Source of the DNA: Halorussus rarus
GTDB taxonomy: Archaea > Halobacteriota > Halobacteria > Halobacteriales > Haladaptataceae
DNA: 64,000 nt
NCBI RefSeq assembly: GCF_003369835.1
Contig: NZ_QPMJ01000002.1
Location: forward strand, 1,116,001 to 1,180,000
Direction: 5' to 3'
Made by a program: the position numbers and the translations under genes. Shown in pieces: positions 54,060 through 58,757 of this stretch (its first letter is position 1; each line of letters opens with the position of its first letter). The notes beneath the pieces were generated by a model. That model was not told the DNA's origin. It ran no database searches and saw only the letters and a program-made list of their open reading frames with translations.

Positions 54060-55892
54060 TCACCCGACCGGCGTCTCGTCGTCCACCGCGTCCAGCAGGT
54101 CGAGGCGGGCCAGCAGGTCCCGCGTGGGTCGACCGCGCTCGTCCCACTCCCGGCGGTCGTAGTAGGCCGAGAGCAGCGCGTCGAACTCCTCGGGGTCGAT
54201 GGCCTCGCCCTCTCGCGGGCCGCTTTCGAGGGGGTCGGTCAGCTTCGCCGGAAGCTCGTCGTCGCTCCGGTCGAACCCCTCTCGGACGTTGAACAGCCGG
54301 GTCAGCGTCCAGATGCGCTCGCCCGCGGTCCGGAGCTCCGCCCGGGTGTAGTCGAGACCGACCGCCGCGAGCCACGCCGCGCCGAGGTCCTCGAACGCCT
54401 CGCCCGCGAAGTCGTCGGCGACCAGGCTCCAGAGCAGCGACCGGGCGTCCTGCTCGGCGATCACCGCCTCGGCCCGGCGTTCGCGGCCCCACGACTCGGC
54501 GGCGAACACCTCCTCGACCACCGGTCGGGCCCGGCGGTGGCAAGCGCCCCGGTCGCTGGTGGCGTAGGCCAGCGCCATCGACGCCGCGCCCCGCGGGTCG
54601 TAGGTCGGCAGCTCCATCGCCTTCACGGTCGGCACCAGGTCGGCGCCGCCGTAGCGGTCGGCCGCGGCGTCGACGCCCCGGGCCAGCAAGTCGCCGAGTT
54701 CGGTGTCGCGGCGAGCGATTTCGCCGAGGAGTTCGCGGGCCGCGTTCTCGTCGCCGAACGAGAGGTCGCGGTCGAGGACGCCCTCCTCGCTCGCCCGGAT
54801 GGCCCACGCCACGGCGTTGCCCGCGCTGATGACGTCGACGCCCAGGCGGTCGCAGGTCTCGCCGAGCGCGGCGACCGCGTCGAAGTCGGCGATGCCCAGC
54901 CCCGACCCGAGCGAGATGGCGGTCGCGCCCCGCGGGACGCTCTCGCGGGGCCCGTCGGCGTCGGAATCGTCTCGTTCTGGTCCGATGTCGTCACCTCCGA
55001 CACTCCCGTCCCTCGCCGTCTCGACCCGGAAGCCGCCCGGAATCTCGCCCTCGCGCTCGCGGGCGACCGCGGCCCGGCGGACCGCCTCGATGCCGACCGC
55101 GCCCGCGCCGTCGAACGCGCCGGCCTGCCAGCCCCGGGTCGGGAGCACGCCCACCGCGTCGGCGAAGTCGACGGTCTCGACGGTCTCGCTGGCGGCCTGC
55201 CACCGGCCGGTGTCGCCCGCCGCGAACCGGGCCTCGGCGTCGGCCCGTCGGTCGGCGAGGTCGGCCGGCGGGTCGGGCGGGTCGCCCTCGGCGACGACCG
55301 CCTTCAGGCGCTTGGCGCCCAAGACCGCGCCGGCGCCGCCCCGGCCCGCCTGGTGGTCGCCGCCGTCCGAGGCGATGGTCGCGTACCGGACCCGGCGCTC
55401 GCCGGCGGGCCCGATGCACGCGGCGGGCGCGTCGAGCGCCGCGTCGGTCGCCGCGGCGTCGGCACCCCAGAGGTTCTCCGCGGGTTCGAGGGCGGCGCCG
55501 CCGTCCCGGATGCGGAGCATCGTCGGCTCGTCGGCCGCGCCCTCGACCAGCACCGCGACGACGTCGTCCAGCGCGCCGGCGAGTGCGCCGGCGAAGTCGC
55601 CGCCGGCGTACGAGTCGAGGAAGGCACCGGTCAGCGGTGACTTCGTGACCGCGGCGTAGCGCTGCTCGCCCGGCGTGAGTCCCGACAGGGGGCCGAGCGC
55701 GAACAACAGGACGTTCTCGGGTCCGAGCGAATCGGTGCCCGGGTCGAGTTCCTCGTAGAGGTAGCGGGCCGCCAGGCCCTTGCCGCCGAGGTAGCGGCGA
55801 CGCCACGCCCCGGGGACGGGTTCGCGCTCGACGCTGCCGTCGCTCAGGTCCACCCGGAGGAGCCGGTCCGGCGGTTCGTAACCCCCATCCAT
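54060..55892 (-). CDS. Aldehyde ferredoxin oxidoreductase homologue lacking Fe-S cysteines
   Basis: 610 residues, all AOR regions recognisable: RRYLGGKGLAARYLYEE, TKSPLTGAFLDSYAGGDFAG, GGAGAVLGAKRLKAVV, AWAIRASEEGVLD, ELPTYDPRGAASMALAYATS. Yet the Cys-x2-Cys-x3-Cys motif expected around residues 280-300 is replaced by REREGEIPGGFRVETARDG, and the distal fourth cysteine (ARSLLWSLVAD region) is also absent. The bis-pterin tungsten site may persist without the [4Fe-4S] cluster, or the protein is non-catalytic. No ferredoxin gene is adjacent. ATG at 55892. Confidence 0.85.
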   Translation of the reverse strand: MDGGYEPPDRLLRVDLSDGSVEREPVPGAWRRRYLGGKGLAARYLYEELDPGTDSLGPENVLLFALGPLSGLTPGEQRYAAVTKSPLTGAFLDSYAGGDFAGALAGALDDVVAVLVEGAADEPTMLRIRDGGAALEPAENLWGADAAATDAALDAPAACIGPAGERRVRYATIASDGGDHQAGRGGAGAVLGAKRLKAVVAEGDPPDPPADLADRRADAEARFAAGDTGRWQAASETVETVDFADAVGVLPTRGWQAGAFDGAGAVGIEAVRRAAVAREREGEIPGGFRVETARDGSVGGDDIGPERDDSDADGPRESVPRGATAISLGSGLGIADFDAVAALGETCDRLGVDVISAGNAVAWAIRASEEGVLDRDLSFGDENAARELLGEIARRDTELGDLLARGVDAAADRYGGADLVPTVKAMELPTYDPRGAASMALAYATSDRGACHRRARPVVEEVFAAESWGRERRAEAVIAEQDARSLLWSLVADDFAGEAFEDLGAAWLAAVGLDYTRAELRTAGERIWTLTRLFNVREGFDRSDDELPAKLTDPLESGPREGEAIDPEEFDALLSAYYDRREWDERGRPTRDLLARLDLLDAVDDETPVG

Positions 55893-56013
55893 CTGGACTC
55901 AGGTACGGCTCGCACGTTGGTAACGGTTCGGGTGCCGGGATGGGTCGGGTGAGCGGCGCGAGGGTCGGAGCGCGACGGGGACACTTTTGGGTCTCACCGC
56001 CGAAACGTCGAGT

Positions 56014-56658
56014 ATGTACGACCGCATCCTGGTTCCGACAGACGGCAGCGACCAGCCGTCCGTGGTCCGCCACGCGCTGAACGTCGCCGAGCTCGCCGGC
56101 GCGACCGTCCACGCCCTCTACGTGGTCGACGAGAAGGCGCTGGACTACCAGCCCTCCGAGTCGGGCCGGAAGGAGACCCGCGAGGCCCGCCGCGAGGAGG
56201 GCGAGGCGGCCGTCGCGGACATCTCCGAGGCCGCCGAGGAGCGGGGCCTCGACGCGGTCACCGCCATCGAGGAGGGGTCGCCCGCCGAGACCGTCGTCGA
56301 CTACGCCGACGAGGTCGACGCGGAGATGGTCGTGATGGGCACCCGCGGCCGGTCGGGCGTCGACCGCTACGTCCTCGGGAGCGTCACCGAGCAGGTGGTC
56401 CGCAGCAGCGAGGTGCCGGTGCTGACGGTCAACCTCGAGCGCCAGCGCCGGGCGGTCCGCGACGACGAGACCGCCGTCGAGCGCGCGAAGGAGGTGCTCG
56501 CCGACGAGGGCCACGAGGTCGCGGAGGTGCCCGAGCAGCCCTACCGCGAGAGCAACACCTGGATCGTCCGGGCGGTCACCGCGGACGGTGACACCTTCAA
56601 CGTCCACCTCGACGCCGCCTCCGGCGAGTCGCGGGTCGCCCGCATCCGGAGCGAGTGA
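56014..56658 (+). CDS. UspA with C-terminal PepSY-like extension
   Basis: 214 residues. Residues 1-145 are UspA (YDRILVPTDGSDQPSVVRHA; VVMGTRGRSGVDRYVLGSVT with an intact ATP loop). The extra 65 residues (VERAKEVLADEGHEVAEVPE, RESNTWIVRAVTADGDTFNV, HLDAASGESRVARI) resemble a PepSY-like small domain with its W-x-V ... V-x-x-D-x-x-x-G-x-V/x pattern. Start at ATG 56014, shortly after an AT-rich ACTTTTGG. The fusion is unusual. Confidence 0.82.
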   Translation: MYDRILVPTDGSDQPSVVRHALNVAELAGATVHALYVVDEKALDYQPSESGRKETREARREEGEAAVADISEAAEERGLDAVTAIEEGSPAETVVDYADEVDAEMVVMGTRGRSGVDRYVLGSVTEQVVRSSEVPVLTVNLERQRRAVRDDETAVERAKEVLADEGHEVAEVPEQPYRESNTWIVRAVTADGDTFNVHLDAASGESRVARIRSE

Positions 56659-57445: not shown

Positions 57446-58183
57446 CTAAGACCGCTCGACCACCGCGACCACCGGGTCGTCGGCGACCATCCGGGTCAGC
57501 ACCACGCGGGGCACCGAGTCGGGCGCGCGAGCCAGCACCCCCTCCGCGATTTCTCGACCGACAGCCTCCAGCTGCGAATCATCGACCATGTTGACGACCG
57601 GAATCGCGGTCGCGCCCTCGGGGACGCCCTTCAGGCCCGCCTCCTCGCTGGCGAGCACCGCGCCCACGTCCTCGGTGCGAACCTCCTCGCCGACCTTCCG
57701 GCCAGTGACCGCGGCCACGCGCTCGGGCCGGTGGATCCGCTCGTCGGTGAGCGGCTTTCCGACGATCCGGGCGCTGGCGAGGGGAATCACGGTGTCGGCC
57801 GCAGCGGGAATCCGGGGTTCGCGCTCGTTCGGGGCCTTCAGCCACCGGGTGCGCGCGCCGTCGGCCTTGACGAGCACCGGCCCGTCGTGAGCCGCCGCGA
57901 GGTCGGCCACCGTCTCGGGGTCGTAGCCGCGGTAGCGGTCCTCGCGCTCGCGCTCGGGGACGAGTCCCAGCGGGAAGCGGTCGGCCGCGGCGGCGGACCC
58001 GATAGGGTCGTCGGTGACGACCACCGCCGCGACCTCCTCGTCGAAGATGGGGATGCGGACCGTCGCGGTGACGACCGCGCGGTCGAGGCGACCGGCCAGC
58101 GCGTAGAGGGTGGTCTTCTTCCCGCCGGCGCCGACGACGCAGGTCAGCCCGGTCGCGGCGTCGAGCGCGTCGGGGAGGTTCAT
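57446..58183 (-). CDS. yqeC: YqeC-like selenium/molybdenum hydroxylase accessory protein
   Basis: 245 residues. P-loop-like start CVVGAGGKKTTLYALAGRLD and the later LVKADGARTRWLKAPNEREP and PVVNMVDDSQLE match YqeC, described near selenium-dependent molybdenum hydroxylases; its reaction is not known. ATG at 58183, overlapping the previous gene's stop by four bases (58180-58183). Beside mobA, in convergent orientation to it. Confidence 0.8.
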   Translation of the reverse strand: MNLPDALDAATGLTCVVGAGGKKTTLYALAGRLDRAVVTATVRIPIFDEEVAAVVVTDDPIGSAAAADRFPLGLVPEREREDRYRGYDPETVADLAAAHDGPVLVKADGARTRWLKAPNEREPRIPAAADTVIPLASARIVGKPLTDERIHRPERVAAVTGRKVGEEVRTEDVGAVLASEEAGLKGVPEGATAIPVVNMVDDSQLEAVGREIAEGVLARAPDSVPRVVLTRMVADDPVVAVVERS

Positions 58184-58638
58184 GCCGCCTCCTCCGCCGC
58201 CGGTCGGCCGGTCTCCCGGTCGTAGAGCCTCGCCATCTCGTTGACGAACGCCAGCTTCAGCGACATCGTCAGTGCGGTGAAGACCGCGGTCCGGCCGGGC
58301 TTTCGGCGGACGGCCGAGTAGAGCGCGTACAGGAAGACCGGGGCGTTGACCACGTTCAGGAGGTTGGCCCGACCGGCGTCGGCGCCCTCGACCCACAATC
58401 GCTCGCCGCGGACGCCGCGGGTCATCCAGCCCTCGTCGGACTCGGGGTCGGGTTCCGGGAAGAGGACTGGGTTGACGACGACGAACGCGACCGTCGCGGC
58501 GAGCAGCTTCCAGTTGCGGGCGTAGAGCGCGTACACCAGCAGCGGGCCGGTCGGAACCCGAGTCCATCCGCTCGCGGGGTTCTCGTGGCGGTCCCAGAAG
58601 TCGGCCTCGGCGAGCCGGCGGCGAAGCGTCGCGGCCAT
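58180..58638 (-). CDS. DUF6653-like membrane protein
   Basis: 152 residues. Two to three hydrophobic segments (LLAATVAFVVVNPVLFPEP, LLNVVNAPVFLYALYSAVRR, AVFTALTMSLKLAFVNEMAR) and an N-terminal motif FWDRHENPASGWTR; recalled as DUF6653. ATG at 58638 is chosen because upstream sequence is GC-poor and non-coding. Overlaps yqeC, probably one operon. Confidence 0.72.
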   Translation of the reverse strand: MAATLRRRLAEADFWDRHENPASGWTRVPTGPLLVYALYARNWKLLAATVAFVVVNPVLFPEPDPESDEGWMTRGVRGERLWVEGADAGRANLLNVVNAPVFLYALYSAVRRKPGRTAVFTALTMSLKLAFVNEMARLYDRETGRPAAEEAA

Positions 58639-58757
58639 ACTCCCGGGGCGTACGCGGGGCGCACACAAAATCTTCACGTCGGAACCGGGCCGTTGTCGAC
58701 CGGGTAGGCACACGCTAACCAGTAGCTAAAAACCGGACGCCGGTGATACCTGGCTCC

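Follow-up and report, generated by a model that had tools for sequence, protein, structure and literature searches.

What could an aldehyde ferredoxin oxidoreductase (AOR) homologue do without the cysteines that ligate the [4Fe-4S] cluster? The question is raised by one gene in a 64,000-nucleotide stretch of the Halorussus rarus genome (the window, meaning the whole stretch of DNA analysed). A sequence-only reading had described its product as an AOR homologue with all fold motifs present and the iron-sulfur cysteines missing.

Fold and residues of the Cys-less AOR homologue

The gene and the parts of it discussed below are as follows.

54060..55892, minus strand: Cys-less AOR homologue, 610 aa (stop included), ATG start
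54924..55061, minus strand: residues 278-323, which replace the CxxCxxxC loop and the E-Y/F-E(313) motif
54414..54431, minus strand: residues 488-493, where W488 corresponds to Asp489 and D493 to Cys494 of Pyrococcus furiosus AOR (PfAOR), each invariant (78/78)
54537..54539, minus strand: His452, corresponding to the active-site His448 of PfAOR, invariant

Two Pfam domains, AFOR_N (6e-63) and AFOR_C (8.7e-93), cover nearly the whole protein, and all structures matched by phmmer at E <0.001 were AOR-family. The AlphaFold model built from a 58-row alignment (mean pLDDT 93.1, pTM 0.93) was overlaid on 1b25 with a Z score of 50.2 over 581 residues at 2.0 Å and on PfAOR (1aor) with a Z score of 48.7; 9mqx and others were overlaid as well. 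Both AFOR domains and the AOR fold confirmed homology to the AOR superfamily. The pLDDT fell below 50 at residues 296-303, in the region found in place of the Fe-S loop, and a conserved PRG[AGS] closes this region. RefSeq names the members of the clade only 'aldehyde ferredoxin oxidoreductase C-terminal domain-containing protein'. Fusion proteins were rejected, as five long stop-to-stop frames contain AFOR domains only.

The fate of the cluster ligands was read from an alignment of 78 clade members including the query, from which the Cys-containing paralogue L118 had been dropped (counts over 79 rows include it). Columns are numbered by alignment to PfAOR, in which the [4Fe-4S] ligands occupy columns 288, 291, 295 and 494. 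Cysteine was found at none of these columns in any of the 78 members, and the Cys494 column is Asp in all of them, so the claim that the Fe-S cysteines are missing was borne out. The query has three cysteines in all and none in residues 262-335 or 483-500; C347 and C451 align with C337 and C447 of PfAOR, which are non-ligand cysteines. Across the clade, the only widely conserved Cys columns are 347 and 451, both invariant, and 159 (76/79 rows). A search of the same alignment for shifted cysteines gave none: query residues 262-335 are free of Cys in 78/78 members, and although 21 of the 78 have one Cys within residues 483-500, it never falls in the Cys494 column but lies at query column 489 in 20 of them and at 487 in the other. 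Shifted ligands are thus excluded as far as the alignment can tell.

The active-site region was altered selectively. The Glu313 column is occupied by Ala in 62, Gly in nine and Ser in seven of the 78 members, and the second pterin Asp, at column 489, is Trp in all. Thr243, Asp343, His448 and an Arg at column 450 (Lys450 in PfAOR) are kept in 79/79 rows, and Tyr427 (78/79, with one Phe) and Arg76 (76/79) nearly so. Of the two pterin Asp motifs, located around 338-343 and 489-494, the first is kept (D/N338 and D343 in 79/79 rows), and the second reads W489 and D494 in 78/78. Compared with P. furiosus AOR (1aor) and FOR (1b25), the Cys-less protein has in common the full-length fold, Thr243, Asp343, Tyr427 and His448, whereas it lacks the [4Fe-4S] ligands and Glu313 and has exchanged Asp489 for Trp and Cys494 for Asp. 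The statement that all fold motifs are present accordingly stands for the fold and its two domains and fails for Glu313 and Asp489.

In PMC13328260, the WOR large subunit (WorL, Class I) is defined by one [4Fe-4S] cluster with ligands that vary little, and Glu313 is listed with the residues that form the cofactor site in most aldehyde-oxidising members. Thr243, Tyr427 and His448 of these enzymes are present in the Cys-less protein; the four Cys ligands and Glu313 are absent. Since two features of the published class definition are lacking, we did not class it with the AOR/WOR enzymes.

Origin and distribution of the clade

An IQ-TREE tree was computed from 51 rows. Its 16 Cys-less rows (the query entered twice, as QUERY and L001) grouped in one clade with 100/100 support. 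Its sister group comprised five Cys-containing haloarchaeal rows (100/100), and both were nested within Cys-containing relatives. This tree fits a single loss of the cluster ligands and of the catalytic Glu, as judged from sequence. The sister group (L036-L039; L166 from Haloferax marinum) shares Tyr93, His182, His183 and the loss of Asp489, whose column is already Tyr or Phe there, but keeps all four Cys and Glu313. Being common to a Cys-containing group, the changes at Asp489, Tyr93, His182 and His183 probably predate the loss of the cluster.

The query was further compared with WOR83 of Haloferax volcanii (9q1t; Clade 83, Class I WOR), a member of the same superfamily in which the Cys ligands and Glu313 are intact. 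The query scored 242 bits to 9q1t, and the WOR83 orthologue of the window genome is a different gene (C2:833491-835320, 1086.8 bits). The 51-row tree holds no row for that WOR83 gene; similar haloarchaeal AORs (for example L055) lie outside the query clade. A full AOR elsewhere in the genome, which the sequence-only reading had advised looking for, was thus found in the WOR83 orthologue, together with a second Cys-containing AOR. This second paralogue (G000:C2:1183085-1184635, about position 67085 in window numbering) lies outside the window, some 11 kb from the query.

The Cys-less clade was called present at E<=1e-100, with four sister-group genomes left out (G032, G163, G245 and G263), and was found in 159 of 292 Halobacteria genomes; all 12 genomes inspected singly also carry another AOR-family gene. 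Haloarcula species are among the carriers of the clade. Among the best 80 of at least 552 relatives from a search with the alignment, eight were Cys-less, all of them haloarchaeal, 69 had four Cys and three had two or three. A contig search with the query protein alone gave no confirmed match. Furthermore, dN/dS ranged from 0.074 to 0.145 in 21 pairs among seven Haloarcula-like members, indicating that the gene is maintained under purifying selection.

Genomic linkage to formate dehydrogenase, MobA and YqeC

The genes beside the AOR homologue in the window are as follows.

55987..56658, plus strand: UspA-family protein, divergent from the AOR homologue, with a Usp domain at residues 10-148 and a C-terminal tail of ~70 aa
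56748..57407, plus strand: MobA-like nucleotidyltransferase, of a family found in 20/58 loci
57446..58711, minus strand: YqeC (TIGR03172, 155.5 bits; curated cut-off 73)

The MobA, YqeC and UspA neighbours named by the sequence-only reading are all there, but its 'UspA fusion' turned out to be a single ordinary Usp domain with a tail, as no second Pfam domain was found in that protein. UspA occurs in only 4 of 58 loci (cluster 22), so this neighbour is probably incidental. In the YqeC gene, homology begins at residue 190 of a 421-aa ORF and the nine other listed members are 241-253 aa long, which places the true start probably near 58180.

To describe the neighbourhood across the class, we used 58 loci, namely the window locus and 57 picked by gene presence and spread over genera, each reaching about 8-9 kb to either side of the Cys-less AOR and less at contig ends. 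Formate dehydrogenase (FDH) alpha was present in 38/58 loci (three of these being fragments at the locus edge), and a representative matched TIGR01591. YqeC was present in 27 of the 58, MobA in 20, a FlpD/Fe-S protein in 20, DUF7124 in 17, a TorD-like protein in 14 and a NuoF-like protein in eight. At least one of FDH, YqeC and MobA occurred in 44 loci and none in 14; in 11 loci MobA lay directly upstream of the Cys-less AOR and divergent from it. Five loci around Cys-containing relatives were inspected as well, four from the sister group and one from a more distant gene, and none of the neighbours listed above was found there. The absence of FDH, MobA and YqeC (4/4 loci) sets the sister group apart from the Cys-less clade.

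The linked FDHs were of three architectures: a 700-aa type, a NuoG-type with a NuoF-like partner, and a ~1000-aa type with FlpD, TorD and Fer4, some with NrfD. All 35 linked FDHs that span the active site contain Arg-x-Cys-His. This variety of architecture with a common active-site motif favours a general role for FDH over that of a subunit of one complex. In the RefSeq annotation, fdhF and a NuoF-like gene lie beside the Cys-less AOR on plasmids of Haloterrigena turkmenica and H. salifodinae, and formate-tetrahydrofolate ligase is encoded in 5/58 loci.

Several other neighbours were recorded. In 17/58 loci, the gene directly downstream of the Cys-less AOR, in the same orientation, encodes DUF7124 (cluster 5). 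A Pfam-unmatched protein of ~185-220 aa (cluster c8, for example L134:11261-11893) adjoins the 700-aa FDH type in 10/58 loci, and it also lies beside this FDH in genomes without the Cys-less AOR. In the two Haloterrigena plasmid loci (L238 and L239), the Cys-less AOR lies between an FAD oxidoreductase and an NAD-type FDH, and the same stretch encodes a Rieske-type dioxygenase, BCCT transporters and glyA. This gene set resembles one for betaine/sarcosine demethylation, a formaldehyde source.

The phyletic pattern was examined in the same 292 genomes, which are related and share ancestry. The counts carry no phylogenetic correction, and Fisher P values calculated from them cannot be taken as true probabilities. 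FDH alpha (E<=1e-150) was found in 211/292 genomes, comprising 153 of the 159 with the clade and 58 of the 133 without it; four of the six clade genomes below this threshold have an FDH-family gene in the locus itself (L091, L104, L114 and L126). YqeC was found in 201/292 genomes, including 159/159 with the Cys-less clade and 126/126 with the closest FDH type (E=0). Twenty of these 126 genomes lack the Cys-less clade yet keep the FDH, which usually has YqeC and MobA beside it. Moreover, all 126 carry some AOR-family protein, a hint that tungsten is available. In the window genome, the FDH is on another contig. The AOR-fold clade is thus linked to FDH, MobA and YqeC by neighbourhood and by phyletic pattern.

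FdhD is the usual cofactor sulfurtransferase and cofactor-delivery factor of FDH. It was found in 0/292 Halobacteria genomes, whereas 8 of 14 control genomes were positive, and the Cys-less AOR gave no Pfam match to the FdhD-NarQ domain (PF02634). FDH-alpha-type proteins are nevertheless present in 211 of these genomes, with a Cys-His active site where inspected. Selenocysteine FDHs, considered for rows with 'one TGA', were rejected: all ten that were fetched have a Cys active site, with the TGAs near the frame ends. YqeC is known as a selenium-cofactor accessory protein. In the window genome, a search for SelD gave weaker matches only and nothing above the cut-off, making selenium use by YqeC unlikely there. 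YqeC is a candidate for the sulfur-step factor of haloarchaeal FDH.

A possible accessory role in FDH maturation

We tentatively propose that, in organisms with FDH and without FdhD, the Cys-less AOR is a metal-bis-pterin-binding accessory factor for FDH and not an aldehyde oxidase, a role in which we infer both the binding and the hand-over of the cofactor. The former active-site cavity would hold a metal-bis-molybdopterin containing W or Mo, with Asp343, Arg450 (Lys450 in PfAOR), Arg76, Thr243, Tyr427 and His448 as putative contacts. The protein may then protect the cofactor, pass it to MobA for guanylylation or direct it towards apo-FDH, and YqeC would be a candidate for the terminal-sulfur step on the FDH cofactor. 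Loss of the cluster and of Glu313 would remove the electron exit and catalysis, as expected for a carrier. FdhD, which is unrelated in sequence, may have an analogous role in binding the cofactor before its insertion into FDH. A more specific version seems possible and somewhat less probable: in haloarchaea, none of which was found to have FdhD in the genomes searched, a tungsten oxidoreductase would have become a non-redox protein that carries or inserts the metal-bis-pterin of FDH, acting with MobA and with a YqeC that serves outside selenium metabolism.

The sequence-only reading had offered three options, namely a different path for the electrons, the need for a partner, and a non-redox role, for example the binding of tungsten-pterin. 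Of these, the last two are favoured by the loss of ligands and Glu, the retention of the pocket and the linkage to MobA, YqeC and FDH. Several observations weaken the proposal. The Cys-less AOR is not strictly required for FDH, given the 20 of 126 closest-type FDH genomes without it, and these genomes also weaken the idea that it replaces FdhD on its own. The strong form of an accessory role is weakened by these 20 genomes, by the YqeC and MobA that usually still accompany their FDH, and by the location of the window genome's FDH on another contig. In addition, 14/58 loci are without FDH, YqeC or MobA, Trp takes the place of the pterin-contacting Asp489, and the cofactor of AOR is bis-MPT, whereas that required by FDH is bis-MGD.

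The main alternative is a cluster-free C1 enzyme, in which the metal-pterin would turn formaldehyde or another aldehyde into formate for FDH and the electrons would be taken up by a partner protein bound close to the metal. Thr243, Tyr427 and His448 are kept, the top structural match is a formaldehyde oxidoreductase (tied with other AORs), formate-tetrahydrofolate ligase appears in five loci, and the Haloterrigena turkmenica and H. salifodinae loci look like betaine demethylation. However, Glu313 is missing in 78/78 members, no internal electron exit is left, and the MobA and YqeC neighbours suit maturation better; we consider such an enzyme unlikely. A fold that is retained and linked to FDH but has lost Glu313, Asp489 and the cluster ligands could also point to a cofactor-free pseudoenzyme, whose AOR fold would offer FDH or its maturation proteins a surface to dock on, in a structural or regulatory capacity. 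The invariance of many pocket residues would, however, be needless in a simple scaffold, and the linkage extends to three FDH architectures, leaving this reading doubtful as well. By analogy with acetylene hydratase, the retained His448 and Tyr427 pocket without its electron-transfer parts might instead serve a non-redox W/Mo enzyme of the hydratase type, acting on a small molecule of formate or C1 metabolism; we regard this as improbable, as the neighbourhood suggests no substrate and MobA, YqeC and TorD would be left unexplained. A decaying pseudogene or sequencing artefact, which the lost catalytic residues might suggest, was ruled out by the agreement of 78/78 members and a dN/dS of 0.07-0.15.

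In the open-licence PMC literature searched, we found neither a description of a cluster-less AOR clade nor one of YqeC in connection with FDH in haloarchaea. A class-wide clade without cluster ligands or the catalytic Glu is an exception to the WOR classification set out in PMC13328260. If the clade does serve FDH, it would raise the question of how maturation of the FDH cofactor is completed where FdhD is missing, and a catalytic fold would have been turned into a carrier or chaperone for its own cofactor. Genetic systems in haloarchaea make such an FDH accessory role testable.
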